Of a stretch of 64,000 nt of DNA, positions 5,746-29,209 are shown piece by piece. The position numbers and the translations under genes were made by a program. Location: assembly GCF_032163395.1 (NCBI RefSeq), contig NZ_CP119968.1:357501-421500 (forward strand), in the 5' to 3' direction. Under the pieces are notes generated by a model. It saw nothing but the letters and a program-made list of their open reading frames with translations. It had not been told where the DNA came from and did not search any database. Position 1 is the stretch's first letter, and the number at the start of each line of letters is the position of its first letter. Source of the DNA: Gloeocapsopsis dulcis (lineage in GTDB: Bacteria > Cyanobacteriota > Cyanobacteriia > Cyanobacteriales > Chroococcidiopsidaceae).

Positions 5746-6950
5746 ATTCTTGCTTCACCGACAAGTGCCTGAGAATCCCCAGGTCTTACCTCGTCTCGAC
5801 AAGCGTTTTGAGCCTCCGTCGAACCAGCGGCGGCTTGTAGTATTCTTAACCCTTCGTTGAGTATGTTGATCGCTGCTGTGCAATCTCTTAATTGGTGAGT
5901 ATTGCACTTCAGACAATCCCACTCTCTTACACTCAAATCTTTTACTTGCGGGTTAATAAAACCACAACAGCTACAGGTTTGAGACAAGGGGAAAAAGGGA
6001 GAAACTTTTTGCACAATTCTGTCGTGCCATAAGGCTTTATATTCCAACATGGCGACAAATTTAGACCAACTAGCATCCATAATACTAAGTGCTAATTTGT
6101 GATTTTTTACCATGTTAGCTACTCGTAGATCCTCGATACAGATAATACTGTTTTCTCGGATAAGACGAGTAGAAAGTTTGTGCACAAAGTCATCTCTCAG
6201 GTTGGTTATCCGTTCGTAGACACGAGCCAACTTGGTTTTCGCTTTGACTCGATTGTTGCTACCTTTGACACTAAGAGCTAATTTTTTGTTAGCTTGACGC
6301 AGTTTCCTTAAAGATTGACGATAGTGTTTGGGATTCTCAATACCCTCTGAATCGCTGGTAACAAGATATGATTTTATTCCTAGATCCAGCCCAATATTTT
6401 TATCTGCTTGGGAATGCTTTTCTATCTCCGTCTCGCACAAAATACTAGCAACGTATTTACCCGTTGTTGTTCGAGTCACGGTAACATTAACAATATTACC
6501 TGTTATTTCTTGAGACTTGTGGAACCTTACCCAACCAAGCTTGGGGAGTTTGAGGTAGTTTTCCCGAAGTTGGATATTGCCGTTGGTAAGATTGGTTTTA
6601 TAGGACTGTTTAAACCTATGCTTCTTTTTGAATTTAGGAATTCCAAACCGTCTTTTCTGTTTGGGTTTCTTCAGATCGGTAAAGAAGTTCTTGTAAGCAG
6701 TCTCTAAATTCCTAATCGCATTCTGGAGAGCAAACTTATCGACTTCGGCTAACCACTCTATCTCTTTCTTTAATTGCGTTAATTCTTGGCTGCATCCACT
6801 ATAGTTTAAAGTTTTCTTCTCGGAGTTGTACAGCTCTTTACGTCTTGCCAGAAAGCGATTGTACACAAACCTAGCACAACCAATAGTTTTGTTGATTAAA
6901 ACTTCTTGGTTGTGGTTTGGAATTAGTGTAACTTTAAATGCTTTTTGCAC
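5739..6950 (-). CDS. tnpB: TnpB RNA-guided endonuclease (OrfB, IS605 family)
   Basis: TnpB nucleases, ancestral to Cas12, cut DNA beside a transposon-associated motif using a guide RNA from the element right end, which helps the element persist. The 403-residue protein has the N-terminal helix-turn-helix-like region ([17 protein letters not shown]), the RuvC-I Asp in GLDLGIKSY, the RuvC-II Glu in IICIEDLRV, a zinc ribbon (CSCCG and CLKC) and the RuvC-III Asp in RDCTAAINI. All catalytic residues are therefore kept. The start ATG is followed by [14 protein letters not shown], the usual family opening. It is only distantly related to the second TnpB at 44.4 kb, so the two elements have separate origins. 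Confidence 0.93.
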
Positions 6951-7002
6951 AATAACAGAGGTATTTATTTATACTCAATTATACCATAGCTCCGGTGGCT
7001 AA

Positions 7003-7023
7003 CCCATGTCTAGAAGACACGGG
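7003..7023 (-). repeat. Left-end hairpin of the tnpB element
   Basis: Arms CCCATGTC and GACACGGG, with one wobble position, surround a five-base loop about 50 bp upstream of tnpB. Its loop region CTAGAAG resembles the right-end hairpin loop, as expected for matched ends of one IS605-type element. Confidence 0.6.
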
Positions 7024-7100
7024 TGTGCGCCACTTTTCCATCAACTCTCTTCGCTCCTGTTGAATGTTATTGCCTTTTTATTTATGGCTGACTACGACTG

Positions 7101-11901: not shown

Positions 11902-13056
11902 CTAGAAAATATCTGCTGGATCGGCGGCGCGAAGTTTGCGCATCGCAATCAGTCCAGAAGTAAGACACATAACGATAGTTAAGCAAAATACAGAAGTTGC
12001 TCGTACAAGTGTCATAAATAACGGTAAGTTTGTTGCACCTCTTGTTAAGCTATAGAGTCCTACAGAAATCATGTAACTAGGAATAAAGCCAAGAATTGCG
12101 AGAATGACTGCTTCTTGAAAAACAATACCAAGCAAATAACTATCTTTGTATCCTATTGCTTTGAGCGTTGCATACTCAGCTAAGTGATCCGAAACATCGC
12201 TGTAGAGAATTTGATAAACAATCACAACACCAACGACAAATCCAATTGCAGTTCCCAAACTAAAAATAAAGCCGATTGGCGTATTATTAGCCCAATAGGT
12301 TTTTTCAGTTTCGACAAACTCTTCATGGGTCAGAACTTTAACATCATTAGGCAATCCAGCCTTTAAAACAGCAGCAACTTGTTGCGGATCGCTACCAGGC
12401 TGCAATGCAACTAAACCTACACTCACTTCTGCGGCTGTACGTTCGGGAAATATCCGCAAGAAATTCAAGTCACTTGTAATCAAGTTTCCATCCGCTGCAA
12501 AGGAAGCACCAACATTAAATAAACCATCAATTTCAATCTTGCGATCTCTAAATTCTGTAGATACCGATTGGTGCTGTTTTAGTTGCGCGATCGTTTGATC
12601 GTATTCTCCTCTAGAACCACTATCAAACAAAAAAGTATCAGGAAGCTTAATTTTATCTAGATTCTGCTCAACTCCTGGTAAGCTAAAAACTGCTCTATCT
12701 GGATTAAAAGCCAAAACTAATACAGCACTTTTTAGGCGCGTTTGTGGAACTTTCCAATTAGCAGTTCCAGTATACAAAGGTACAGCCGATTCAACACCAG
12801 CAAAATTCATTGTTTGATACAACCGACTGCGTGGAAAAGTAGATAGATTGACAATATTTTGTGCTTGCGGACTCACTAAAACCAAATCTGCCCGCATACT
12901 ACGGTGCATTCGCGTATTACTATCATAAAGTGCATCCTGAAAACCCAATTGTAAAAACATCAACATATCAGCAAAAGCAATTCCCGCCATTGCAATCAAA
13001 AGCCGCGTTCTTTCACGACTCACTTGTAGCCAAGCCAACGGAGTTTTACGTTTCAT
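11902..13056 (-). CDS. devC: DevC-family ABC transporter permease
   Basis: The 384-residue permease has an N-terminal membrane helix (LLIAMAGIAFADMLMFLQLGF), a large periplasmic domain of about 210 residues, and three C-terminal helices (near 265-285, 312-335 and 350-370), the MacB/FtsX-like layout of DevC. The start MKRKTPLAWLQVSRERTRL is typical. It would form the inner-membrane channel with DevA and connect to the fusion protein DevB and a TolC-like outer-membrane factor, not in this window. DevB is upstream, separated by about 156 bp that includes a palindromic repeat. Confidence 0.93.
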   Translation of the reverse strand: MKRKTPLAWLQVSRERTRLLIAMAGIAFADMLMFLQLGFQDALYDSNTRMHRSMRADLVLVSPQAQNIVNLSTFPRSRLYQTMNFAGVESAVPLYTGTANWKVPQTRLKSAVLVLAFNPDRAVFSLPGVEQNLDKIKLPDTFLFDSGSRGEYDQTIAQLKQHQSVSTEFRDRKIEIDGLFNVGASFAADGNLITSDLNFLRIFPERTAAEVSVGLVALQPGSDPQQVAAVLKAGLPNDVKVLTHEEFVETEKTYWANNTPIGFIFSLGTAIGFVVGVVIVYQILYSDVSDHLAEYATLKAIGYKDSYLLGIVFQEAVILAILGFIPSYMISVGLYSLTRGATNLPLFMTLVRATSVFCLTIVMCLTSGLIAMRKLRAADPADIF

Positions 13057-13143
13057 TTGTTACACCCCAGTTATTAACTATTCATAATCCAGAATCATCA
13101 CAGATTACCTTTCCCTAACTCTTCTCTGTGTTCTCTGTGTCAC

Positions 13144-13189
13144 GGACACTTGTTTCAAGTCGAGGCTTTGCCCGCCCAACGCAGTGTCC
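13144..13189. repeat. 46-bp palindromic dispersed-repeat-like element between devB and devC
   Basis: GGACACT at the left and AGTGTCC at the right form the outer arms, with CTTGTTTCAAG and the GC-rich block CGAGGCTTTGCCCGCCC between them. This resembles small repeats scattered in filamentous and unicellular cyanobacteria. It may fold in the devBC mRNA and affect expression of the distal genes. Confidence 0.55.
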
Positions 13190-13212
13190 TCATCTGTGGT
13201 TCGCGTCTTAAC

Positions 13213-14403
13213 TCAAAGTTCAATAACAGTTTTCACCTGCATATTAGTCAAGCCAGAAACTTGCTGACTAGCTTCAGGATCGAGACGAATTTTAACTTCA
13301 ACAACTCTCGAATCAATATTTGCTGTTGGGTCAGTATCCAGAACATCTTTTTTACCAATTGCTAGACCAATTTCATCAACTTCTCCCTGCAATTTTTCCG
13401 TAAAAGCGCTACTAGTAATTGTTACGTTTTGACCTGGACGAACTTTTTGAATATCACTTTCATAAACCTCTGCAACAACATACATTTGATCAGTTTGTCC
13501 AATATCAACTACTCCGTCATTACCAATAACTTCACCTGACCAAGCGTGAATTTTCATAATCTGTCCATCGCGAGGCGATCGCACATAGGCTAAATCTAAA
13601 TTTGCTTGTGCTTGCTTGACTGCGACAATCGCACTATCAACCTCTGCTTGTGCTGCTGCAACATCTACAGGACGAACTTCTGCAATTTGATCTAATGTTG
13701 CTTTTGCTTCACCAACTTGTTCTTGTCTACTTCTGGTAATGCGATTTAAATTTGCTTGTGCCTCGTTCAGTTGCTGCTGCACAGTTTGTAGCGTTAACTG
13801 CTTACTGTCACGTTCGGATGTAGAAATTGCTCCTTCTTGATATAATTTCTGATACCGTAGATATTCAAGTTGAGCATTACGAACTTCAGCGTCTAATCGA
13901 GCAATTGTTGCTTGTTGTGCTTTCGTTTCTTCCTGTTTTTCAACTTCAATTCTTGAAATTGTTGCTTGTTGTGCATTAATTTCCCCAGATTTTGCACCTG
14001 CTTTAACTTGTGCTAAGCGAGTTTGGGCAACTTTAACTTGTTGCTGGGCTTGTTCTAACGCTGTTAGGAGGCGATCGCGACTATCTAAAATTGCTACTAT
14101 TTGTCCTTTGCTGACTTGATCTCCTTGTTTTACCAACAATTCATCAACACGGCTGCCTTCGGAGGAAACCGGTGCAGATAGTTGAATCACTTCTTGGTAT
14201 GGTTCTAAACGCCCTAATGCCGTCACAACTCTTACTTGCGGTACGCTAACCGTAGGAGGAGGTGCAGGACTTTGCCTAACCTGGAAACGTGAAACAGCGT
14301 AGATAATCCCGCCTGTAGCTACCGCACCGATAACCGCTAGAATAGTAACCCGCCGAAATACTGGTTTGATGATTTGCTTATCGCTTACACTCGACTGGAA
14401 CAT
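13213..14403 (-). CDS. devB: DevB/HlyD-family membrane fusion protein
   Basis: The 396-residue protein has one N-terminal membrane helix (VTILAVIGAVATGGIIYAV, residues 18-36), a split lipoyl-like domain (ALGRLEPYQEVIQLSAPV and YVRSPRDGQIMKIHAWSG), and a long coiled coil (about residues 110-260) rich in Q, A and E. The C-terminal beta-barrel part includes VRPGQNVTITSSAF. It is the periplasmic adaptor of the DevBCA exporter. It is the first gene of the operon and faces a divergent PadR-family regulator, a layout that suggests local control. Confidence 0.93.
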   Translation of the reverse strand: MFQSSVSDKQIIKPVFRRVTILAVIGAVATGGIIYAVSRFQVRQSPAPPPTVSVPQVRVVTALGRLEPYQEVIQLSAPVSSEGSRVDELLVKQGDQVSKGQIVAILDSRDRLLTALEQAQQQVKVAQTRLAQVKAGAKSGEINAQQATISRIEVEKQEETKAQQATIARLDAEVRNAQLEYLRYQKLYQEGAISTSERDSKQLTLQTVQQQLNEAQANLNRITRSRQEQVGEAKATLDQIAEVRPVDVAAAQAEVDSAIVAVKQAQANLDLAYVRSPRDGQIMKIHAWSGEVIGNDGVVDIGQTDQMYVVAEVYESDIQKVRPGQNVTITSSAFTEKLQGEVDEIGLAIGKKDVLDTDPTANIDSRVVEVKIRLDPEASQQVSGLTNMQVKTVIEL

Positions 14404-14468
14404 GGCTACAAATACACTCCATGCTTAGCTTAATGAGGTTGACAATGGCGATCGCGCTTTGTGTGACA

Positions 14469-14515
14469 TAGCTTCGGCTGGAAGCTACATTACTGTACAA
14501 TTTAGATCTAATTGT
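14469..14515. promoter_or_regulatory. Candidate operators between devB and padR
   Basis: Two dyad-symmetric sites lie in the 146 bp between the divergent genes: a perfect TAGCTTC-GGCTG-GAAGCTA (14469-14487) and a near-palindrome ACAATT-T-AGATCT-AATTGT (14497-14515). PadR proteins bind palindromes near their own promoters, so the second site is a candidate operator. No binding evidence exists. Confidence 0.45.
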
Positions 14516-14549
14516 TATATATCTTTTAGAAATATGCAAGACACTAGAT

Positions 14550-15113
14550 ATGGCACGCGAGAATAAAAGCAAGTATGCAATTATGGGAATCTTGACTTGG
14601 GGTTCCATGTCCGGCTACGACATTAAAAAAGAAATTGAACAAAGCGTTAACTACTTTTGGCACGAAAGTTACGGTCAAATTTACCCAATCCTCAAGCGTC
14701 TAGTTGCGGAAGGCTTGGCGACAAAATCTGTAGAAGAACAAGCAGGAAAGCCAGATCGCTACGTTTACACACTGACAGAAAGGGGGAAAGAAGAACTGCG
14801 TCAGTGGTTAACTCAACCCGCAGATAACCCTGTAGAAAGAATCGAGATATTGTTGAAGCTGATTTTTGGGCGACACGTCTCTGTAGCTGATAACATTCAG
14901 CATGTCAAGCAATTTCAAGAATTTCAGCAGCAACTATTGCAAGAGTACCGTTCCATCGAGCAAAAGTTACAACATCAGTATTGCAATGAACCCGATTACC
15001 CTTACTGCATGGCGACGCTACGATACGGATTCCACACAAGTCAAGCACTACTGAATTGGTGTGATGAGACACTGGCGATGCTACACAAAATCGCAGAATC
15101 AACCCAAAATTAG
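14550..15113 (+). CDS. PadR-family transcriptional regulator
   Basis: The 187-residue protein has the PadR winged helix at residues 7-85 (AIMGILTWGSMSGYDIKKEI, YGQIYPILKRLVAEGLA, DRYVYTLTERGKEEL) and a C-terminal helical dimerisation domain of the AphA-like type (Vir_act_alpha_C). Such regulators usually repress neighbouring exporter genes and release DNA when a ligand binds. It is divergent from devBCA and separated by only 146 bp, so it likely controls that operon and itself. The ligand is unknown. Confidence 0.9.
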   Translation: MARENKSKYAIMGILTWGSMSGYDIKKEIEQSVNYFWHESYGQIYPILKRLVAEGLATKSVEEQAGKPDRYVYTLTERGKEELRQWLTQPADNPVERIEILLKLIFGRHVSVADNIQHVKQFQEFQQQLLQEYRSIEQKLQHQYCNEPDYPYCMATLRYGFHTSQALLNWCDETLAMLHKIAESTQN

Positions 15114-15258: not shown

Positions 15259-16248
15259 ATGGCTACCATCACTTGGAATCGTCACCATGTTCTTTCTCTC
15301 GCAGATTTCACGCCGGAGGAATACGATACAGTCTTACAAACCGCAGCAAGCTTTCGTGAGGTATTATCGCGGCGGACAAAGAAAGTACCAACATTGCAAG
15401 GACAAGTTGTCGCCAACTTATTTTTTGAACCATCAACACGGACTCGCAGTAGCTTTGAACTTGCAGCAAAACGATTGTCTGCAGATACGCTCAATTTTGC
15501 AGCTTCTACGTCATCGTTAACTAAAGGCGAGACGATTTTAGATACCGCAAAAACGTATTTGGCGATGGGAACCGATATGATGGTAATTCGCCATCGCGAA
15601 GCTGGAGTCCCCCAAGCGATCGCTTCGGAAATGGATCGGCTAGGAGTCAGAGTCGGAGTATTAAATGCGGGTGACGGTCAACACGAACACCCATCCCAAG
15701 CATTACTTGATTTGTTTACAATATGTACGCTTATTGATAGCGATCGTCCCCGATTGGAACTTTTAAAAGACAAAAAAATAGCAATTGTCGGTGATATTTT
15801 ACATTCACGAGTTGCCAGATCGAATATTTGGAGTCTGACAGCAAGCGGTGCCGAAGTTCACTTAGCCGCACCACCCACACTATTACCCCAGTTATTTGCA
15901 GATTTCACTACCAACGCTCCTGGTAAGTTGTTTTTACATTGGAAAGTAGAACCTGCACTACAAAATGCTGATTTTGTCATGACACTGCGGTTGCAAAAAG
16001 AACGCATGACACAGCATCTCCTCCCGAGTTTGCGCGAATACCATCAGCGATTTGGAATTACACGCGATCGCCTGCGAATTTGTCAACCTAATGTTAAAGT
16101 ACTGCATCCAGGTCCTGTAAATCGCGGTGTGGAAATTAGTTCTGATTTAATGGACGATCCGCAATTTAGCTTGATTCAGACACAGGTAACGAGTGGTGTT
16201 GCTGTGCGAATGGCACTTTTGTATCTAATGGGAAATAGCAAAGCTTAA
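15259..16248 (+). CDS. pyrB: Aspartate carbamoyltransferase catalytic subunit
   Basis: PyrB joins carbamoyl phosphate and aspartate, the first committed step of pyrimidine synthesis, in the cytosol. The 329-residue protein has the carbamoyl phosphate loop [19 protein letters not shown] (near residue 55), the SSLTKGET loop, [11 protein letters not shown] and [11 protein letters not shown], all diagnostic. The ATG follows a heptamer repeat. No pyrI or other pyr gene is adjacent, as is usual in cyanobacteria. The stop overlaps by four bases the convergent stop of a hybrid histidine kinase, so antisense interference is possible. Confidence 0.96.
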
Positions 16249-18179
16249 AATAGCGTGTGTAATTGTGTCGTGCTGCTTATCTGTTTATTGGGGTGCAAAA
16301 TTCCATCGATTGTTTGCAGTAATTCTTGCGTCGTAAATGGTTTAGATAAAAAACTTTTTACCCCAGCCGCCGCGATCGTATTCATTTTATCTTTAGACGC
16401 TAATCCACTTACTGCAATCACTTTCACCATCGGATTCATTTTTTGTAGCGTGCGGATTGTTGTCGGACCATCCATCGCTGGCATCAGCATATCTGTAATC
16501 ACTACACTAACTTCATCGCGATATTCTGCATATAAAGCGACTGCTTCAATACCATTACTCGCAGTAACAGCGCGATAATTATAAGTTTCCAGCGAGGTTT
16601 TGGTTGTTTCTCGGATCGGTGCTTCATCATCAACTACCAAGATTAATTCACCATGACCTTGAGGAAGTTCCAAATTCTCTACTTCAACCATTTCTACTGC
16701 TTCTACTGCTGGTAGATAGATCTGAAATCGAGTTCCTTTACCAATTTCACTTGCCACATTCACAAAACCACCGTGGCTTTTCACAATACCAATGACTGTA
16801 GAAAGACCAAGCCCTGTACCTTTGCCAATTTCTTTGGTTGTAAAAAATGGCTCAAAAATGCGATCCATGACTTCTGGTGGAATTCCACACCCTGTATCAG
16901 CAATAGTAAGTACAACATAAGAACCTACCTTAGCATCAAGATTTTTGCGTACGTAGCTTTGATCGACTTCCAAATTTTCTGCTGAAATTGTCAAAGTGCC
17001 ACCTTCTAGCATCGCATCACGCGCATTGACACAAAGGTTCATCAAGACTTGATGTAGTTGTGTCGCATCACCAGAAATCGTCCAGAGAGATTGTGGAACA
17101 TCAATGCAGATTTCAATTGACTTGGGAAAAGTTTCCTTCGTAATCTGCTTAATTTCCGAGATGATGTGTCGTAGTTGTAAAACGCTGCGTTTACCCTCAA
17201 GACCTTTGGCAAAAGATAGCACTTGTTTGACGAGTGCTGCACCGCGTTTGGCATTCGCGATTAATATCGGCAATAACCGTTGACTGCGTTCGTCATGGAC
17301 TTGTGTTTCCAGAAGTTGAGCAGTCATTAAAATTGGTGCGAGGATATTGTTGAGATCGTGTGCAATGCCACTTGCCAGCGTACCAAGGCTTTCCATGCGT
17401 TGGGCGCGCAAAAATTGAGCTTCTAGTTGTTTTTTTTCAGTGATATCAGTATTAACAACTAGAATTGATTTAGGTTGCCCTTGTTCATTGCGGACGAGTG
17501 TCCAACGGCTTTCAACAATGACTTCTGCACCAGATTGAGTGATTTGAGCTAGCTGTCCGCGCCATTCTCCTTGCGAAACGACAATTTTCTGCGCGGCGGT
17601 CAGTTGTGGCGGCACATCTACATACAGTAGTTCGCTTGCTTTTGTCCCTAACGCGTCTGCTGCTGTCCAGCCGTATAACCTTTCTGCACCTTTGTTCCAA
17701 AATAAAATTGTGCTGTCTAAAGCTTGGACGCAAATTGCATCCGTGGCGACATCGAGTAACGCGGCTTGTTCGCGGATTTTTTGTTCGGTGCGTTTTCGTT
17801 CTAACGCGTAGCGAATCGAACGTTCTAAAGCATAAGCTGTAATTTGACTTTTTTCGAGATAATCTGCTGCACCTGCTTTCATTGCTTCGACATCAATTTC
17901 ATGATCTCCTTGCCCAGTCAGTAAGATCATCGGTGCATTACATCCCCGTAACATGGCTTCGCGTAGCAGTTCCAAGCCATTGCGATCGCCTAAACGGTAA
18001 TCGAGGAGATACACATCATGCCGATTTTGGGCGATCGCTGTTAGTGCTGCGTCATAACTTGCTACCCACTCTAGCTCAAAGCTATTGCCTTGATCCAAAA
18101 ACCAATCGCGTGTGAGGACATAATCATCTTCGTCATCATCAACTAGGAGCACCCTGATTGTGTTATAATCCATGTCCAT
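16245..18179 (-). CDS. Hybrid histidine kinase, REC-PAS-HisKA-HATPase-REC
   Basis: The 644-residue soluble protein has an N-terminal receiver ([20 protein letters not shown], phospho-acceptor Asp in [10 protein letters not shown]), a PAS domain (about 140-250), a kinase core with the acceptor His in [10 protein letters not shown] and ATP-binding motifs [17 protein letters not shown] and [11 protein letters not shown], and a C-terminal receiver ([13 protein letters not shown], Asp in [13 protein letters not shown]). The GIAHDLNN type is common in NtrB-like kinases. It is the last gene of the RsbQ-led operon, and its start overlaps the preceding regulator gene by 17 bp. It has no DNA-binding output, so signals must pass to another partner. 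Confidence 0.93.
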
Positions 18180-18636
18180 CTCCCACGCCTTCTATAGGCA
18201 ATTCCACGATTTCAAACCAATACTTACCTATAGTTCGCATCACCTCAACTAACGAAGCAAACGTTACTGGTTTCGTAATAAATGAGTTTGCACCAAGATC
18301 GTAGCTACGATAAATATCTTCTTCGGCTTTTGATGTGGTCAAGACAACCACGGGAATTTGACGTAAATTCGGGTCAGCTTTGATTTCTTTTAATGCCTCA
18401 CGACCGTCTTTTCTTGGCATATTCAAGTCAAGTAAAATCAACCCTGGACGTGGCGCAATGATAGCTGCAGTGTATTTGCCGCGTTGGTACAAATAATCCA
18501 TTAGCTCTTCGCCATCGGGAACAAAGTGCAGATCGTTTGCCAAACGACTTTCTGCAAATGCCTCGCGTGCAAGCATACAGTCATCTTCGTCATCGTCAGC
18601 CATTAAAATTGTGACGGTTGTGCGGCGCCTCCTCAC
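18163..18636 (-). CDS. Single-domain CheY-like response regulator (Rcp1 type)
   Basis: This 157-residue receiver has the acidic pocket MADDDEDD, the phospho-acceptor Asp in LILLDLNMPRKDG, the switch Thr in VVLTTS and the Lys in FITKPV. The extended loops and C-terminal helix match regulators of phytochrome-type kinases such as Rcp1. No output domain is present, so it is a phosphate shuttle or a binding partner. It lies between the predicted photoreceptor kinase (6 bp upstream) and the REC-PAS-kinase (17 bp overlap). Confidence 0.93.
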   Translation of the reverse strand: MRRRRTTVTILMADDDEDDCMLAREAFAESRLANDLHFVPDGEELMDYLYQRGKYTAAIIAPRPGLILLDLNMPRKDGREALKEIKADPNLRQIPVVVLTTSKAEEDIYRSYDLGANSFITKPVTFASLVEVMRTIGKYWFEIVELPIEGVGDGHGL

Positions 18637-18642
18637 TGATAT

Positions 18643-20748
18643 TCAATCTCCTCTATTATGTTTAATTGGCAGCTTGACAATAAATTTTGCTCCTGCCATA
18701 GGCTTGCTCGTTGCTGTAATGCTACCACCGTGACGTTCGGCGATTTTACGGCAGATTGCTAAACCCATACCTGTTCCTTCGTATTCGCTACGATTATGTA
18801 ACCGCTGGAAAACATTAAAGATGCGATCGAGATATTTTTCTTCAAAACCGATACCGTTATCTTCTATAATAATTTCACAAAGCTTGGTATCTAGCCATTC
18901 TTCACTATTTTGACTTTGCCAATCTTCAAATTCTTTGCTGTAAATCTTAACAATCGGTACTTGATCTGGCTGGTGAAACTTTAACGCATTACCGATTAAA
19001 TTTTGTAACAACTGCCGCATTTGGATTGCATCAGCATCAATTGTTGGTAATTCACCCAGCATGACGTGCCCATTAGTTTGCTGAATGAGTATTTCCAAAT
19101 CAGATAAAACTTCTTGTGCCACTTGGGTGAGATTAACAGGTGAAAACGGCTGTGCCCTTGTTGCAATTCGAGAAAGTGTTAGTAAGTCATCGATTAAGAC
19201 TTGCATCCGCTGGGCAGCGTTTTGCATGCGTTCTAAATAATCACGTCCTTGTTCATTGAGGACGTCACCATAGGTAGCCTTCAATCGATTACCAAAAGCT
19301 TGAATCTTACGTAATGGTTCTTGCAAGTCATGGGAGGCAACAGAAGCAAACTGCTGTAATTCTGCATTGGCGCGAGTCAGTTCTTGACGTTGCCGAGTTT
19401 CGTCTTCTAGTAGTTGTGCTTGCGCTAAAGCAATGCCAATTTGATCGCTGAGTTGTTGCAGTAGTTCAACTTCAAAGGTACTCCACTGTCGAGGAGCATT
19501 GCACTGATGCGCGATGAGTAAACCCCAAAGTTTTTCTTTGATAAAAATTGGAACAACTAAGTTGGCGACGACTTGAAATTGTTTCAAGAAGTCGATGTAG
19601 CAGTGTTTTATATCAGAATTATAAATGTCCGCAACGCAACCAATATGCCCTCGAATATATTTATCGAGGTATTTCTGTTGAAAGCAAGGATCGTAGAGGT
19701 TGCGTCCAACAATCGCGGCACATCCTGGAACAACTTCTTCTTTAACAACTTTACCCGAACCACTAGAGAACAGTTGAAATAGCACTACCCGATCGCACTG
19801 CAAAAGTTTTTGAACTTCAGTTACAGTCGTTTGTAGAATTTCCTCGATATGCAGCGAACGACGAATTTTAAAGGTGATATCCGCAAATAACTGCGATCGC
19901 AACGTTTGCCGTTGTAATTCTGCTTCAGAATGCTTGCGATCGGTAATGTCCATATCAATTCCGGTCATGCGGATCGCCGTGCCTGTCTCGTCGTAGTAAA
20001 CTTGACCTTTAGCTGCAATCCAATGAATACTACCATCTGCCCAAATTACGCGGAATTCAACCTCGTAATCGGTTTGCTGCGCGATCGCCGCAGCGATGAT
20101 TTGTTTTAAGGCTTGGCGATCTTCGGGATGAACGCTTTCTAAGAAACTTTCGTAGGTTTCAATTACCCCATTATCCGCGATGCCAATGTTAGCTGCTGCT
20201 GTACCAGAGTATCTAATTTTGTGATTGAGCAAATCCCAATCCCAAGTTCCCATATGCGCCGCATCTAAAGCTAAACGCAGTCTCTCTTCACTCACTCGGG
20301 CGCGTTCTGTCTGCTGGCGTAATTTTTCTGTTGCCCGACTTGCTTGTAATAGACGATACACCCGTTGGCGGAGTACTGCCCAGTGAATAGGTTTTGTGAT
20401 ATAGTCCGTAGCACCTGCTGCAAAAGCACGATCAACCGACTCTTGATCCTCTAGAGCAGTAATCATCAAAATTGGCGTGCGATCGCCACCAGGAAGCATT
20501 TTTAGCTGTCTGCTACAAGTAAACCCATCCATCTTTGGCATTAAGGCATCGAGTAGCACGATGTCTGGTTGCATCTGAGTATAAGCAAATAATGCTTGTT
20601 CGCCATCACTTGTCTCGACAATGCGGTAGCCGACTTGTTCCATTGCTAGCCGGAGTTGCAGCCGCGTAAATTTCTCATCATCAACAATGAGGACAAGAGG
20701 AGGATCTTGTTCGGGATCAGTAATGTTCATACTTGGCTCAGCTGACAT
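18643..20748 (-). CDS. REC-PAS-GAF-histidine kinase with a DXCF cyanobacteriochrome-type GAF domain
   Basis: The 701-residue protein has a receiver (residues 17-130, acceptor Asp67), a PAS domain (150-270), a GAF domain (285-445), HisKA (His473 in [13 protein letters not shown]) and an HATPase (575-695, [12 protein letters not shown]). The GAF domain contains DPCF at residues 353-356 and a second cysteine, Cys383, in [11 protein letters not shown]. In DXCF cyanobacteriochromes such as TePixJ, the DXCF cysteine and the canonical bilin-attaching cysteine are 28 residues apart; here Cys355 and Cys383 are also 28 apart. The following VVANLVVPI and [10 protein letters not shown] fit the family. 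I infer covalent bilin binding and blue-light absorption in one state. The residue after the canonical cysteine is Tyr instead of the more frequent His. Its start overlaps the BarA-like gene by 22 bp. Confidence 0.92.
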
Positions 20749-23700
20749 TCGGCTTGCAGAGCGACTTTAACTCTAGTAAACTCGGCTACAATTTGCTTCA
20801 CCTTGGATGATATCTCGCTCCTATTGCCGTCAGTACTCATTGTTTCTAATTCTTTACTCAGTTGAGAAAGCGTCATTGCGCCAAGCGTAGCACTGCTTGA
20901 TTTGAGTGTATGTGCAGCTTTACGCAGTGCGATTGCTTCTTGGCTATCCACGGCATCAGCCATTTCTTGTAAAAGCTGTACCGAATCATCTATGTAACAA
21001 TCTATTAACTCAGGCACAATCTTCTCCGCATTTTTTCCTACCATTTTCTTCAACGATGCTAGTTTTTGGAAATCAATAGCTGTTGAATATTGGTTATCAA
21101 AAGTGGGTGACCGAGAGGCAAGAGGTTGTTGAATTCCTAGTAGTGCTTGCGTGATTTCTTCTACCTGGATAGGCTTACTAATGTATTCATTCATACCAAC
21201 TTTGAGACATTCTTCCTTGTCTTCCTGCATGGCATTAGCAGTCATCGCAATAATTTTAGGACGTACGTCCTTGGCAAACTCTTGAATAATCTGACGAGTT
21301 GCTGTCAAACCATCCATTTTGGGCATTTGCAGATCCATCAACACAACGTCATAATTTTGACGATATAAAGCAGCTAAAACTTCTAATCCATTGCTGGCAA
21401 GATCTATTTGATAACCTAATCCTTGCAAAATATGTAAAGCGATTTTTTGGTTTACGATATTGTCTTCTGCCAGCAAAATTCGCAACGGTAAGTTTGATGC
21501 AAATGTAGAGTCATTATCAACTAAATTACTGTTAGTATCATCTAATGAATTATCCCAAAGCTGACTTAAGATAGTGTAAAGGTGCGATGTTTTAATTGGT
21601 TTAGTTAGGTTGACAAAATTTAATTGAGATTGTGCAGGTGCGTCTTGGTTGCTAATTGTTGTTAATAATATTAAAGGTAACTGAGAATGCTGGCGAATTG
21701 CTGCGATTAAATCATTGCTGTGGTGTATTTGTGAATCTATAATCGCAACATCAAATAATGTACCTTGTTGAATTTGTGTAAGTGCTACTGTGGGTTCTAA
21801 ACTACAAGGAACTATCCCCCAAGATTGTGCTTGCCAAACTAAAGATTGTTGAATTGTGGGATGATCTTCCACAATTAACATCCGCTTTCCGGCAAAATGT
21901 AACAAGTTTTCTGGGGGGGAAACACTAGTATCAGTTGTTGTTGCGATCGTAAAATAAAAAGTAGAGCCTTGATCTGCACGGGTTTCAACCCAAATTCGAC
22001 CCCCCATCATCTCACATAGCTGCTTAGCGATCGCTAAGCCTAAGCCAGTTCCGCCGAATTCGCGCGTTATTGAAGCGTCGCCTTGACTAAAAGCTTGAAA
22101 TAAACGTTCTACAGTCTCAGATGAAATACCAATTCCTGTATCTTTGACTGCAAATTGAATTTCATATTCATTCTGGCGCTCTAAGCGGGCTGTAACCGAA
22201 ACGAACACTTCTCCTTGTAGTGTAAATTTAACTGAGTTGCTCAGTAGATTTACGATGACTTGTCGCAAGCGGGTGACATCGCCAACAATATTATTGGGAG
22301 TATCTGGATGAATAATATAACCTAATTCAATATTTTTCTCTGCCGCTTTAAAAGCTAAAATATCTACAGCTTCTTCAATACAAGTTCTTAAATTGAAAGC
22401 ACGCCGTTCTAGTTCTAGCTTACCTGACTCAATTTTTGATAAGTCTAAAACGTCGTTGATTAACATCAACAAAACATCACTACTTGTACGAATTGTTTCT
22501 AGAAATTCTTTTTGTTGCTGTACTAAAGGGGTACTCAACAGTAAATTCGTCATCCCGACAATCGCATTCATCGGCGTCCGAATTTCATGACTCATATTCG
22601 CGAGAAACTGACTTTTAACACGAGTTGCAGCTTCAGCGTCTGTTTTTGCCTTTTCTAATTCCTGATTCGCTTGTGACAACTCTTGAGTGCGTCGCACAAG
22701 CATTTTTTGACTATGATGTTGCTCAGTAATATCATCTAATATCCACAATCTACCAGGTACATTGTGTACCCGTGTTGCGGTACTCGAAATACTCAAAACT
22801 TTAGGTGTTTCACCCTGAAAAATCCAATGCCAATGACGAATTTCTGCTTGTGGCTGAGCAAAAAAATGTGCTGCTTGTGCAGTAATTTCGCTTTGATTGT
22901 CAGCACTGGTACGTAGTTTTGCCATTGCTTGTGCCAAAATTGGTGGTTCTACTGCACCAGGTTGTAGCCCCAATTGCGCTGCAGCCGCCTGATTAATCCA
23001 ACCTTGTTCTCCACTTTCATCAACAAAGACAACTCCCTGATGAATAGTTTCTAGCATTGCACTAAAGCGTGATCGCAGTTTATCCAGGCGGAGAGTTGTA
23101 TCAGTAAATTGTAGTAACGTGCGTAACTCGCTCAGGAGCAACTCGACAAATTGCCGCATTTGTGGAGTAATGGAGGTGTAGCGATACCAAATCAGTAAAA
23201 TTGCCCCCTTTGTACTATTTGATGTAGCAAGTGGTAACACCGCAACTGACTTAGCGCCTTGCGCGAGTAAAATATGAGAAGCATCAGGTGTTGTCGGGTA
23301 GTTGCTGTAGTAAAGACAGCGGTTTTGCGCTAATGCATCGTTAAATAATGCAGGAGTCGTGAGCGAAGCAGGAAGCACTTTTGCAGGTAGACTCGCGATT
23401 GTTTCGGCGGTAACATCATCAATCTGACGTAGGGCGATCGCTGCATCGGCACGAGTTATCTTTTGTAAAAGTGTTAATGCTTGGTTGATTAGCGTATTTG
23501 GGGTTGTACTTGTATCAGTATTAGCTAGTGTGATTAAAACTGATTGTGCTGCTAAACGCCACTCAATATCTCGGAGGAAGTTATTTGAGGGAATGCTGCT
23601 GATAACGACACCACACAATCCAATAGTGAGTAAAAGGTGTGTGGGATAAGATACACCAATCAGGAAGATAACTGCACTAATGAGTAGTGCTTGCTCAATT

Positions 23701-23867
23701 TGCAGAGGTAAACCTACGCATACAGTTAACAAAATTAACGCTAACAACAAAGATGTCCATCCTTGCCACACACCTAAGCAAACAAGAATGAGGATGCCAG
23801 CAAATAATATTGGTCTAAATGTCGGTAGCCAATCAGGATGATTTAGGTTTAGATCTGGGCGAGACAT
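20727..23867 (-). CDS. Membrane hybrid histidine kinase (BarA-like), GAF-PAS-HK-REC-REC-HPt
   Basis: The 1046-residue protein has an N-terminal block of four or five membrane helices (residues 15-95), a GAF-like domain (115-265), a PAS-like domain (270-385), a coiled coil, HisKA (about 420, [19 protein letters not shown]) and an HATPase ([20 protein letters not shown]). Two receivers follow: the first is degenerate ([12 protein letters not shown], Asp in [10 protein letters not shown]) and the second canonical ([23 protein letters not shown]). A C-terminal HPt domain has its His in [17 protein letters not shown]. This is a complete internal phosphorelay whose HPt can pass phosphate to other receivers in the operon. 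It overlaps rsbQ by 19 bp, so the two are likely translated together. Confidence 0.94.
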
Positions 23868-24652
23868 GAGGCGATCGCGCGGGTAACGGTTTCTGGTGCG
23901 CTGATGTGGGGTAAATGTCCTGTCGTTGAGATATTTGTCAGTGTGCTGTTGGCGATCTTTTTTACCATGTACTGACCAACTTCTAGGGGTACAGCAATAT
24001 CATTATTTGATTGTAAGATATCTACAGGCGTCTTGAGTCGGGGTAACTCTTCGCGGTGATCGGACTGAAAAATTACTCGCACCACAGCTTGAGCGATATC
24101 AGGGCGAATTGCGGATAAGGTGTTTGCATACTCGATCGCGAGTTCTGGTTTATCAGGATTCCCCATTGCCAGTGGCGCAAATCCACTTGCCCAAGCATAG
24201 TAGTTCGCCGCCATCGCCGCATAAAGTGCATCTAAATCAGCTTGCTCGAAACCGCCAATATAATTGACATCATTGAGGTAGCGTGGCGATGCACTGATAA
24301 AAACTAATTTACGGAAGTATTGCGGCTCAACCAGGGCAGCTAATAAGCTCACCATACCACTAACTGAGTGACCGATTAAAACACTGTCTTTCAGTTTCAA
24401 CTCAGCACATAAATCGAGTAAATCTTCAGCATAACTATACAAACTACTGTAGCGGTGCGGACTATACGCGGCGAAGTCTGATTTTCCCGCACCGACATGA
24501 TCGAAAAGAATAATGCGATAGCTATCTCTAAAGGCTGCGACTTGATTCCGCCAGGCAGTTTGATCGGTGCCAAAACCGTGCGCAAAAATTAATGTCTGAC
24601 TACCGCTACCCAGAACATTGACATTATTCCGCTGTAGGATGCTTGTTACCAT
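23849..24652 (-). CDS. rsbQ: RsbQ/KAI2-type alpha/beta hydrolase
   Basis: RsbQ proteins are small alpha/beta hydrolases that perceive a small hydrophobic ligand and work with a PAS-containing partner; plant KAI2 and D14 hormone receptors share the fold. The 267-residue protein has the oxyanion loop [12 protein letters not shown], the nucleophile Ser96 in GHSVSG, Asp218 in QSNNDIAVP and His246 in [11 protein letters not shown]. These positions nearly match the B. subtilis RsbQ triad (Ser96, Asp219, His247). It is first in a five-gene operon of sensor kinases instead of the classic rsbP phosphatase partner. I infer that it supplies a ligand signal to the overlapping membrane kinase; the ligand is unknown. 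Confidence 0.92.
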
Positions 24653-25168
24653 AAGACAGCGATCGCAATCACTTTCTATTATCCGCTGGTACTGCCGTAC
24701 TTAGATGTTAATTTAAGTGTAGCCTCCTAAAGAAGTGTCTAATTTGAGCATACAGTTAGCGATCAAAAGTTTGGTCTTCAGTATTAATACAGAATTAGCA
24801 CATACAGTTGAGGATAGCTAAAGCAAAATTCTAGTGAAAATACTCTGTTTCACCAACTTAGTTTGTCTTAAGCTCACAGAAAGAAAAGGTTGAGGAATTA
24901 ATTATGTTGGTAATAGAGCCGCTTTGTTGCAGATATATGTAAAAATCGCTTCGCCCTTTAAACTAAGGCTATCTTTAATTTGCCCTCAAGCTAGAATCTT
25001 AACTATTATATAAACCGTTGAAAAACGGAAGTGTCAAGCCGCTGCCGCTTGTTTAGAAGCAGTCTTTCATAGCTGCTGAGCGAACCTAGCCTAGCTCTGC
25101 CATAGCTAAAAGCACCTTTGAGTATTTATATACAAATCTACAAACATCAAGGGTCAGATATGTAGCTT
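24653..25168. promoter_or_regulatory. Divergent intergenic region between the rsbQ operon and the large sensor kinase
   Basis: These 516 bp hold no convincing gene. They must contain the promoters of the rsbQ operon (leftward) and the 1346-residue kinase (rightward), but I cannot place -35/-10 boxes with confidence. One stretch near 24920 (GCCGCTTTGTTGCAGATAT) vaguely resembles an insertion-sequence end, with no partner found. Confidence 0.4.
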
Positions 25169-28100
25169 ATGCGAACAAGTGAACAAATAAAGAATGAGAT
25201 TGAGGAAAAGTTTGGTTTCTTTCCTCCCTTCTTTAGCCCAGCGGTACAGACTCCACTAGTGTTGGAAAACCTTTGGCAGCAGACAGTAAATGCCTATGTC
25301 GATAATCCTCTGCCAATCTTATTTAAGGAAAAGCTCTCCGCTTACCTGTCGCGTTACTGTCCCGTTCCCTACAGCATGATCTGCCACAGCTGTTCCCTAC
25401 ACGATTTGGGAATGAAAGCATGGGAGGTGTTAGAGCTACTTGAATCGCCCCCACCAACACAAGCGGATGTTGATGAATACCTAAGTATTCTCAGTCAAGT
25501 ACCTGGTGGACTGAGTGACTTGCCATCAAACTTGGTAATCCAAGAGAGCCTACTCTATTGTTCTATATTTATTGCCCTCGAAAAAGAGAAAGCTGAATAC
25601 TGCCGGACTGAGCTATGTCAATTTCTAGGTGCTACGAATTTTCAGCACTTAGTCATGCTTATCGGTTATCTCAAGACTTGTCATGTGTGGATGGAGTCCC
25701 ATCCTGAAGTGGAATATGAAACTGACAAGCGAGTTATTAATAATCTGAGTGTCTTAATTGAGGATGAGCCTAGTTTAGCTGACTTCTTTGATAACTACGT
25801 CGAGAGGGTTAGACGCGAACGCCAAGGTTCTCGGCTAGCTACGAGCAGCTTAGCATTACTCGAAAGCGAAGAGCGTTTCAGGTTGTTAACTAAGAGTATT
25901 ACAGACTACGCAATTTTCATGCTAGATCCCAACGGACAGATTGTCAGTTGGAACGCTGGAGCAGAACGTATTAAAGGTTATCAGGCAAATGAGATTATCG
26001 GTCAACATTTCTCCTGCTTTTATACCAGTGAGGATATTCAACACGGTAAGCCCAAGCGAAATTTACAGATTGCGGCAACCGAAGGTAGTTTTGAAGAAGA
26101 AGCCTGGCGGTTACGTAAGGACGGATCGCGATTTTGGGCGAATGTCATATTGACTACACTAAAAGACGAGGCGGGAAATCTCAAAGGTTTCGCGAAAGTG
26201 GCGCGGGACATGACCGAGCGCAAGCGGGCAGAAGAGGCGCTCAAAAAGGCTAATGATGCCCTAGAAATCAGAGTGGAAGGGCGTACGACTGAATTAAAAA
26301 ATGCTATTTCGCAATTGCAAAGCGAGATTATTGAGCGCCAGCGGATGGAAAAGACGCTCCAGGAAAGCCAAACTCGCCTAAAACTCATCAATAGCATATC
26401 GACCGCTGGAATTGCGTTAAATATGTCGGTTGAGAAAACTATTGAACGCACCTTAAAACAGCTCAGTGAATATTTCAAGACCTTTCGAGTTGTTTACTCA
26501 ATCATTGATAAACAAGGCAACTTGACTGTAATTGATTCCATAGAACCTCAAGGAATGCCACTACTAAAGGGGCTAGTGTTAGATTTGACTTTGACACCGG
26601 AATATGCGATCGCTCTGTGCATGAAAGAAGCAGTTATTGTTGAGGAGGTTGCCCAAGACATGCGGTTAGCGCCTCTAGCTGCAGCAATATTAGCTAAGGG
26701 TACCCAAGCACTACTTAATGTGCCGTTTCAGCATCCAGACAATTTGGTAGGTCTGCTGTGTTTTGAGTCATCAGAACCTCGGAAATGGAGTGAGCATGAG
26801 AGCGCAACACTAATAGAAATTGCTCAATACCTATCCATCCTGACTAAGAACGCCCAGGCACAAAAAGAACGTCAGCAAGCAGAAGAAGCCCTACAAGGAT
26901 CTCACCAACAATGTGAAATAACAGTTATTAATCGTACTACCGAACTTGCGAAAGCAAATGAAGAATTAATAAGTGAAATCAACGAACGCAAGCAGGTAGA
27001 GTCAGAACTACAAGCATCACATAAAGACTTAGCGGATATCAAGTTTGCCCTGGATCAATCTTCAATTGTGGCGATTACCGATCCCAAGGGAACAATTAAC
27101 TACGTTAACGATAGGTTCTGTGAAATTTCCAAATATGCTAGGGAAGAACTACTGGGACAGAACCACCGGATCATTAATTCTGGTTACCACCCACAGGCAT
27201 TCTTTAGACAAATGTGGGCGACCATTAGTAATGGGCAAGTCTGGCAAGGCGAGATCAAAAACCGAGCCAAGGACGGCACTTTTTACTGGGTGGATACAAC
27301 CATTGTGCCCTTCTTGAACGCGGAGGGAGAACCTTATCAGTATGTGGCAATTCGCAGTGATATCACTGAGCGTAAGCAAACAGAGGAGACACTGCGGCAG
27401 CAAACGGATCGGGAGCGGCTTGTAGAACTGATGACCCAACGCCTCCGCCAGTCTCTTAACCTTCAAGAGATTCTTAATACCACGGTAGCAGAAGTTCGAC
27501 AGTTTCTTGCCTGCGACCGAGTGTTTATCCATCGCTTTGAGTCTGACTCAAGCGGAATTGTTGTTGTAGAATCTGTAGCTCCCGATTGGACATCTATTCT
27601 AGACACGAAAATCCAAGGCTCCTATTTGGTAGAAGCTACTGGCGAGGGATATCAGGGTTACATCCAAGCTGTGGCAGATATCTACGCAGGAGGTTTAAAC
27701 CAGCGTTATGTCAATTTTCTGGCTCAGTTTCAGGCTCGGTCTATTTTGGTAGTTCCGATTTTGCAGGAGGAAAAGTTGTGGGGACTACTAATTGCCCATC
27801 ACTGCTCAGAGCCACGGCAATGGCAGCCGCTTGAGATTGAGTTGCTCAAGCACTTGGCAACCCAAGCCGCGATCGCCATCCAACAATCGGAACTTTATCA
27901 ACAGGTGCGGCAGCTCAATACTACCCTAGAGTGCCAAGTACAAGAGCGGACAACACAATTGCAGCAGTCTTTGGAGTTTGAAGCAACGCTGAAACGGATC
28001 ACTGACAAAGTGCGTGACAGTCTCGACGAAAGTCAACTGCTACACATTGCGATGCAGGAATTAGTCCTCGCCCTAGACTTAATCTGCTGTGATACGTCTT

Positions 28101-29209
28101 TGTACAACCTGGCAAACAACACTTCGACTGTTCGTTACGCGCATACAGCCTCTAGCGCAGAAGAGACCGTTGTCAGTGTCTCTTCTGTAGGACACACCGT
28201 GCAAATGACAGACTTTCCTGAAGGTTACCGTCAGCTACGGCAGGGTCAGTATTTTCAATTCTGTGACATAACTCCTGATGTTGTCCGGAGTCAGGTGGCA
28301 GTTCTAGCTTGTCCGATTGTTGATGACCAGGATATTTTAGGCGACCTGTGGCTATTCAACCATAAGCAAGATCCCTTTGATGAACTAGAGATTCGCTTAG
28401 TACAGCAGGTGGCGAATCAATGTGCAATCTCCATTCGTCAAGCCCGACTATACCAAGCGGCTACTGCACAAGTTGAGGAACTAGAAAAACTAAATCAGCT
28501 CAAAGACGACTTCCTAAGTACCGTTTCCCACGAATTGCGGACTCCGATCGCCAACATGAAGATGGCGCTCTCTATGCTAAAACTTTCTCCTACACCTGAA
28601 AAAAGCCAGCGTTATCTGGAGATTTTGCAAACCGAGTGCGCCCGTGAAAATGAGTTGATCAACGAACTACTAGATTTACAACGACTGGAAGCAGGATCTT
28701 ATTCCATCTTGCTTAACGAGGCTATAAACCTACAAGAAATTTTGCCTACTATAATTGAGCCGTTTCGCGTCCGCACTGGACAACGCGAGCAAACTTTACA
28801 AATTAATCTTCCCCATGAGTTGCCCTCTTTGATCTCAGAGCGTGCCAGTTTGGAAAGGATCTTAGCAGAACTCTTGAATAATGCTTGCAAATACACTCCT
28901 GCTGGTGGTGAAATTGTCATGGGCGTTTGCCAAAAGTCTGCTGAAGCAGCAACTATATTTACCATCAGTAATCCTGCAGAGATTCCTCAAGACCAATTGT
29001 CACGTATCTTTGAGAAATTTTATCGCGTGCCCAAGGGCGATCGCTGGAAACAGGGCGGTACTGGGTTAGGGCTAGCTCTAGTACAGAAGTTAGTTGAGCA
29101 TCTACAGGGTACTATCACAGTTGAAAGTGCTAATGGCTGGACTACTTTTACCGTCGTGTTACCTAATCAGCCTAGTTGTCAAATTCAGGTGTTTTCTGTG
29201 CCAATTTGA
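25169..29209 (+). CDS. 1346-residue multi-domain sensor histidine kinase with a cysteine-rich N-terminal domain
   Basis: The domain order is: residues 1-210, an AhpD/carboxymuconolactone-decarboxylase-like region containing [20 protein letters not shown] (Cys64, Cys72, Cys75, His78); PAS (230-350); coiled coil; GAF (405-560); coiled coil; PAS (615-740, [16 protein letters not shown]); GAF (755-905); GAF (935-1090); HisKA (about 1110, [15 protein letters not shown]) and HATPase (1210-1335, [16 protein letters not shown]). No membrane segment is seen. The second GAF is phytochrome-like but has Arg where the bilin cysteine would be and lacks DXCF, so it should not bind bilin. The N-terminal CxxC suggests redox or peroxide input. 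There is no receiver next to it. It is transcribed away from the rsbQ operon, and a terminator for the opposite strand lies just beyond its stop. Confidence 0.9.

Follow-up and report, generated by a model that had tools for sequence, protein, structure and literature searches.

A predicted membrane GAF-PAS sensor as a candidate second class of RsbQ partner, at the head of a putative phosphorelay cluster in Gloeocapsopsis dulcis

Through what kind of partner does an RsbQ-family hydrolase signal when it heads a cluster of phosphorelay genes? The question is raised by five open reading frames (ORFs) at positions 16245–24652 of a 64,000-nucleotide stretch of the cyanobacterium Gloeocapsopsis dulcis (contig NZ_CP119968.1; hereafter, the window), all on the minus strand with the hydrolase first. 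How the RsbQ-type signal is transmitted in bacteria and which compound is sensed are unsolved, as is the native ligand of plant KAI2. The main text of Nadezhdin et al. 2011 (PMC3183031) already presents an RsbQ whose PAS partner carries exchangeable outputs. The most N-terminal domain of the partner described there is an RsbP-PAS, which has an hPhG motif that contains a Cys, has a conserved F helix and lacks a DIT motif. We find that the core of the G. dulcis cluster is its first two genes, RsbQ and a sensor, and that the sensor appears to belong to a different partner class. The reading that we favor, with moderate confidence, is that RsbQ and the transmembrane (TM)-GAF-PAS part of the sensor form a two-protein input module, the HPt relay being shared here with a light-sensing kinase.

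The RsbQ-sensor pair

The first gene (24652–23849) encodes a protein of 267 amino acids (aa), an alpha/beta hydrolase by Pfam that homology over its full length places in the RsbQ/KAI2 family. The closest solved structures are moss KAI2-like proteins (6e-79), Arabidopsis KAI2 (about 2e-71) and Bacillus subtilis RsbQ (1wom, 1.6e-67). The triad of Ser96, Asp218 and His246 is intact, and it is conserved to at least 95% in the aligned RsbQs. The second gene (23867–20727) overlaps the first by 19 base pairs (bp) and encodes a membrane hybrid histidine kinase (HK) of 1046 aa, with the order TM-GAF-PAS-HisKA-HATPase-REC-REC-HPt. The other genes lie at 20748–18643, 18636–18163 and 18179–16245, such that the coordinates give overlaps of 19, 22 and 17 bp and one gap of 6 bp. 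The preliminary description of this DNA, made from its letters, had claimed this tight arrangement, the family and the intact triad, and on all three it was right.

Across loci, the gene after RsbQ opens with a shared N-terminal module of approximately 390 residues. The loci came from one genome-collection scan (60 loci) and from further genome searches; several are the same contigs under two labels (L027/L087, L028/L180, L029/L178 and L039/L183), and the locus sets are therefore not independent samples. A census of 388 genomes of the order, with matches at E up to 1e-30 and 1e-60 and the best 4 (module) and 6 (RsbQ) candidates per genome scored, gave among those candidates 47 module matches in 45 genomes and 79 RsbQ matches in 68. 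The module lay directly downstream of an RsbQ match on the same strand in 44 of its 47 matches, at gaps of –10 to 456 as taken between match ends. RsbQ matches of at least 60% identity had the module downstream in 44 of 49 cases, versus none of the 30 below 60%. One unpaired module (G401) apparently belongs to a gene broken across the ends of two contigs, of which it is one half. Another (G479) is truncated, on a contig of 6.9 kb from a genome that is 66% complete; a second record (L084) has a broken RsbQ about 2.3 kb upstream. Recurrence of the gene order in other genomes had been named beforehand as the test that could refute a conserved operon; the order does recur, and the cluster thus exceeds chance.

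Output swapping and the downstream genes

Pfam matches on examples, together with the locus census, revealed six output architectures behind the module: HK-REC-REC-HPt (as in the window), HK-REC, HK, PAS-GAF-HK (in one locus, L036), GGDEF-EAL, and PAS with a class III cyclase. On the module tree, which like the first and second RsbQ trees below is a quick tree without bootstrap, six changes account for the six output labels, one more than the minimum of five, so each output arose about once and was exchanged between lineages, though not rampantly; the HK label of L208 is doubtful, as it was assigned only because the contig ends there. In one locus (L197:8738–10930) the gene behind the GGDEF-EAL version encodes 730 aa and contains a protein kinase domain. 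In the other GGDEF-EAL census loci an ORF of 714–730 aa, matched by size and position, stands next.

The last gene of the window cluster (18179–16245) encodes a REC-PAS-HisKA-HATPase-REC protein of 644 aa; its best NCBIfam model is the equivalog CckA, at a score of 361.8 versus a cut-off of 1000. Between it and the two kinases stands a lone receiver of the shuttle type (157 aa, GTG start; 18636–18163, from the ORF and Pfam). The phospho-acceptor His and Asp motifs are all kept in the kinases, receivers and HPt of the cluster. Pfam counts six receivers over the four proteins (2+1+1+2), where the preliminary description had five, and it detected no DNA-binding domain in the five cluster proteins, in line with the absence of such an output claimed before. 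Domains, motifs and gene order together point to a putative four-protein phosphorelay.

The alternative that survives best, possible but in our view doubtful, is that the genes are co-transcribed and serve parallel pathways: RsbQ with its kinase, the cyanobacteriochrome kinase with the lone receiver, and the REC-PAS-kinase-REC protein by itself. Kinase-receiver pairs such as Cph1-Rcp1 exist alone, and the RsbQ-sensor pair stands without the rest in 18 of the 44 loci (HK, GGDEF-EAL and PAS-cyclase outputs), at least one of which (L208) ends at a contig end. Against parallel pathways, a REC-PAS-HK-REC gene follows in 19/21 HPt-type loci and 2/2 HK-REC loci (21 of the 23 that end in HPt or REC), compared with 0/18 loci with plain HK, GGDEF-EAL or cyclase outputs. 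The exceptions among the HPt-type loci are L176, where the gene is apparently split in two ORFs, and L178, which has another gene; of the remaining census loci, two are cut within the module and one (L194) had its module missed by the ORF walk. That the presence of this gene tracks the type of output is the strongest argument for its membership in the phosphorelay.

Co-divergence

In 40 paired loci the RsbQ distances and the module distances were correlated (r=0.84), and none of 2000 permutations gave a value as high; shared species history also contributes to this covariation. The tight pairing through output swaps and the co-divergence fit a physical partner better than they fit RsbQ as a plain enzyme that, with no protein contact, produces or breaks down a diffusible compound recognized by the GAF or PAS of the membrane sensor. 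In favor of such an enzyme, small-ligand binding is common among GAF and PAS domains, the triad is intact and the pocket positions are conserved; the pairing data leave this explanation standing, though we consider it unlikely. Both models of RsbQ and RsbP in the main text of PMC3183031 involve direct contact, which also speaks against it.

The PAS domain of the partner

A profile was built from 37 RsbP-PAS domains. Its members scored 115–166 bits (scores that are not leave-one-out), 118 other PAS domains of the loci scored at most 25.9, and 46 modules, inclusive of one near-duplicate genome (L027/L087), scored at most 5.2. When the profile was trained on non-cyanobacterial members only, 14 of 14 tested cyanobacterial partners from clade 2 (the second cyanobacterial group of RsbQs, below) scored 91–110 bits and the modules at most 3.3. 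The PCG motif was present in 33/37 RsbP-PAS members and in 0/46 modules, whereas a DIT-like ending was present in 43/46 modules (by a looser pattern) and in 0/37 members. The profile leaves out 8 of 45 RsbP-type partners: L211, L215 and L222, where the motif is visible and the pattern missed it, and L053, L062, L064, L069 and L079, GC-rich, where the frame looks wrong. The window sensor does not have the combination of PCG, conserved F helix and absent DIT that marks the RsbP-PAS domain, and its assignment to RsbP-PAS was rejected on profile score and motifs. That its PAS is a diverged RsbP-PAS, the published module with extra N-terminal domains, would agree with the order of the genes and their short overlap, with the fold of the PAS and with the exchange of outputs, but is improbable with scores below those of generic PAS domains, with the motif counts above and with a PAS that is not the most N-terminal domain.

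The published kind of partner is found in cyanobacteria as well. In 27 loci with an RsbQ of 40–48% identity (L091–L104 and L210–L222), an RsbP-PAS sensor is directly downstream in 17 (14 by profile, 3 by visible motif). In the other 10 (L095, L096, L099–L104, L220 and L221) no RsbP-PAS gene was found directly behind RsbQ, the 398-aa neighbor in L103 and L104 not having been profiled. One genome (G197) has an RsbQ of each kind. Cyanobacteria thus hold both kinds of partner.

Anatomy of the partner module

The predicted helical membrane part of the window sensor (residues 18–115; 23816–23523) has four helices by hydropathy and in an AlphaFold2 model. The model, computed from 23 sequences (mean predicted local distance difference test score 78, predicted template modeling score 0.55), places these at residues 18–35, 39–52, 57–73 and 75–115. 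They are followed by a GAF-like domain, a long helix (235–274), a PAS-like domain (278–379) and an exit helix. The GAF-like domain (residues 118–245; 23516–23133) was assigned from the model and Foldseek, with Pfam GAF_2 below cut-off. The PAS domain (residues 262–385; 23084–22713) has the DIT motif at its end. Behind the module, Pfam and the motif residues define HisKA-HATPase-REC-REC (residues 418–909; 22616–21141) and HPt (residues 953–1031; 21011–20775). The top Foldseek matches by E-value were multi-domain sensors (WalK, DhaR and bacteriophytochromes), all with low TM-scores. The fit was closer for single domains, with a TM-score of 0.71 by target length both for the GAF domain 3trc and for 3p01, which is from Nostoc and carries the title response regulator. 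A PDB profile search with the module returned weak PAS/GAF sensor matches alone (DcuS, 1e-4).

Two partners from other bacteria bear on which part of the module is essential. The partner in a Polyangium (Myxococcota) locus, L049, has no predicted membrane part, its start being our own ORF call. The RsbQ of a Sphingosinicella plasmid (L223) has a GGDEF partner, a diguanylate cyclase (6073–7050), whose N-terminal part matches the module profile at 31 bits and which has no GAF or RsbP-PAS profile match. Against a PAS-only module profile it scored 25.9 bits, versus 20.9 for the best of 118 other PAS domains; because this is modestly above that best domain, its likeness to the module PAS is suggestive only. 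The idea of GAF or TM as the essential docking part is weakened by both partners. No plasmid match to the module was found. Both Polyangium loci (L048 and L049) hold an RsbQ of the clade-1 side (57–58% identity) with an HPt-type partner, possibly a transfer between phyla.

A candidate light input

The third gene (20748–18643) encodes a REC-PAS-GAF-HisKA-HATPase protein of 701 aa. Its GAF domain (19860–19423, by profile search and alignment) aligns with the solved GAF domains of 6oap (1.5e-37) and RcaE (4e-37), which we take to be cyanobacteriochromes, and the cysteine of its HCY motif falls on their chromophore-type Cys. The DXCF cysteine is also there, as DPCF. With both chromophore-type cysteines kept, homology and motifs agree with the candidate photoreceptor proposed in the preliminary description. 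Blue light is a reasonable guess for DXCF-type cyanobacteriochromes. A Cys stands at the canonical position in 14 of 16 GAF rows from the operons, the window included, which speaks for a light input.

Among 15 GAF rows obtained from 17 clade-2 partners, the canonical Cys was present in 9, on the same polypeptide as the RsbP-PAS and a GGDEF or kinase. Partners that join RsbP-PAS, a cyanobacteriochrome-like GAF and a GGDEF or kinase were observed in L091, L092, L093, L094, L212–L214, L218 and L219. Cyanobacteriochrome-like GAFs stand beside RsbQ in both clades, and thus RsbQ and a possible light input meet in both.

Relation to plant KAI2

In the RsbQ tree, clade 1 (the window's side), Polyangium and plant KAI2 are split from clade 2 and other bacteria, with a Shimodaira–Hasegawa-like approximate likelihood ratio of 100. 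This tree was rooted at its midpoint without an outgroup; L203 and L027 were omitted from the first RsbQ tree, and the long-branch L215, L075, L057, L187 and L192 from the second. As sampled here, then, plant KAI2 appears to attach on the clade-1 side of an unrooted tree, and the window-type pair appears to be a second RsbQ partner class on that side. At 16 positions that separate the two bacterial groups by thresholds of our choice, Arabidopsis KAI2 agrees with clade 1 at 8 and with the RsbP-PAS side at 2. The residues in question include Ala220 and Val221, both close to the catalytic Asp. KAI2 also has Phe158 in common with clade 1; the pocket positions compared are those we presume to line the KAI2 pocket.

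Moss KAI2 and the clade-1 RsbQs are 46–52% identical. In one set the best clade-1 RsbQ reached 52% (276 bits) versus 42% (217 bits) for the best other bacterium. With another program, the plasmid RsbQs (the pair L223, L224) gave 50% (226 bits) for Sphingosinicella and 47% (256 bits) for Novosphingobium. In the second RsbQ tree, which has no outgroup and whose bacterial sequences were gathered with the window RsbQ as query, KAI2 groups with these two, but on long branches, and such joins may be false. Clade-1 RsbQ as the sole closest relative of KAI2 is not established, given insufficient rooting and sampling and sphingomonad plasmid RsbQs that are about as near by identity. Passages in two reviews cite a transfer of bacterial RsbQ to streptophytes (PMC10504578, PMC9828678).

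A broader scenario would have two deep RsbQ branches with two partner domains, RsbP-PAS and a separate PAS class, the latter preceded by TM and GAF in cyanobacteria. KAI2 would derive from the second branch. The cyanobacterial pairs would keep the ancestral pocket of the KAI2 type and would use a membrane kinase to sense a compound that is similar to the KAI2 ligand and is perhaps an apocarotenoid. We regard this scenario as a long shot.

Surroundings of the cluster

A promoter and terminator scan of 23700–25300 gave 3 promoter-like sites, no excess over the mean of 3.5 in shuffled sequences. The end of the cluster is convergent with an ORF read as pyrB from its sequence (4-bp overlap). On the other side, a divergent gene (25169–29209) encodes a PAS/GAF sensor kinase of 1346 aa, whose first 230 residues have no Pfam family match (E up to 0.1); a Cys-containing stretch in its N-terminus has an AhpD-like resemblance by eye. 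Near the cluster, at 11902–15113, are likely DevC/DevB-type exporter genes and a PadR-like regulator, also read by eye.

Discussion

For the favored two-protein input module, we infer the ligand, the contact, the direction of the signal, the phosphotransfer and the light response as follows. RsbQ would bind or turn over a small, probably hydrophobic ligand. While doing so, it would contact the GAF-PAS part of the partner, the PAS being the likelier dock, and the contact would alter the helical linker and thereby whatever output is fused behind. Here the output would be the BarA-like kinase-REC-REC-HPt, the HPt of which probably exchanges phosphoryl groups with the receivers of the cyanobacteriochrome kinase, the lone receiver and the REC-PAS-kinase-REC protein. 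Light signals and chemical signals would in this way feed into a single phosphorelay. An AlphaFold2 prediction in a passage of a 2025 paper (PMC12143880) places RsbQ between the PAS domains and the linkers of RsbP, and by analogy hints at a general mechanism, acting through the linker, that could work with partners of either class.

Several observations weigh against this reading. A module-PAS-cyclase gene with no RsbQ neighbor (G537; L163:6183–8444) is a real orphan, and five solitary RsbQs of 62–67% identity on the clade-1 side (L167–L171) have no module; among the neighbors of such RsbQs are an M1 peptidase in L170 and a DUF4351 protein in L168. The module was found in 5 of 386 genomes of a phylum sample, the window's own included, and the system is therefore sparse. 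The full five-gene order, present in 9 of the 44 census loci that hold the pair, is confined to the window's family group, save for a Symplocastrum locus beyond the census (L044). Among the 16 GAF rows from the operons, in which one genome is counted twice (L027, L087), the canonical Cys is wanting in 2, and the DXCF Cys is present in only 10. Lastly, the published RsbQ contact concerns RsbP-PAS, which is absent from the window module.

A second partner class, with the same hydrolase acting on kinase, phosphorelay, cyclic di-GMP and cyclase outputs, would offer a series of natural variants in which to map the surface used for docking and to find the ligand. As the RsbQ clade is on the KAI2 side (as sampled) and has pocket residues in common with KAI2, the bacterial proteins may report on the first ligand of the plant receptor.

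Comparison with known systems

Plant KAI2 and D14 belong to the same hydrolase family as the window RsbQ; unlike it, they have no PAS sensor, and their partners are F-box and SMXL proteins. The third protein resembles cyanobacteriochrome kinases such as RcaE in its GAF alignment, canonical Cys and DXCF motif, and differs from them in its N-terminal REC and in sharing an operon with RsbQ. The sensor shares HisKA-HATPase-REC(-REC)-HPt with the BarA/ArcB hybrid kinases. Its NCBIfam BarA match, however, starts only at residue 400 (449.5 versus a cut-off of 890), and the sensor part is therefore not covered.

The nearest known system is the RsbQ/RsbP-PAS module. The preliminary description had suggested an undescribed integrating system, which is only partly right because an RsbQ-sensor module with swappable outputs is published (PMC3183031); the difference lies in the partner. 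In the main text of that paper, figures apart, neither GAF nor transmembrane nor any word beginning with cyanobacteri- is used, and no description of an RsbQ-TM-GAF-PAS pairing was found in the titles and abstract openings of the open-access papers on RsbQ that mention cyanobacteria, GAF domains or diguanylate cyclases. Both systems have an RsbQ-family gene directly upstream of a sensor, and both swap outputs, kinase and diguanylate cyclase among them. The window-type partner, in contrast, opens with predicted TM helices and a GAF domain, its PAS ends in DIT and is not RsbP-PAS, and its outputs extend to HPt phosphorelay kinases and a class III cyclase.

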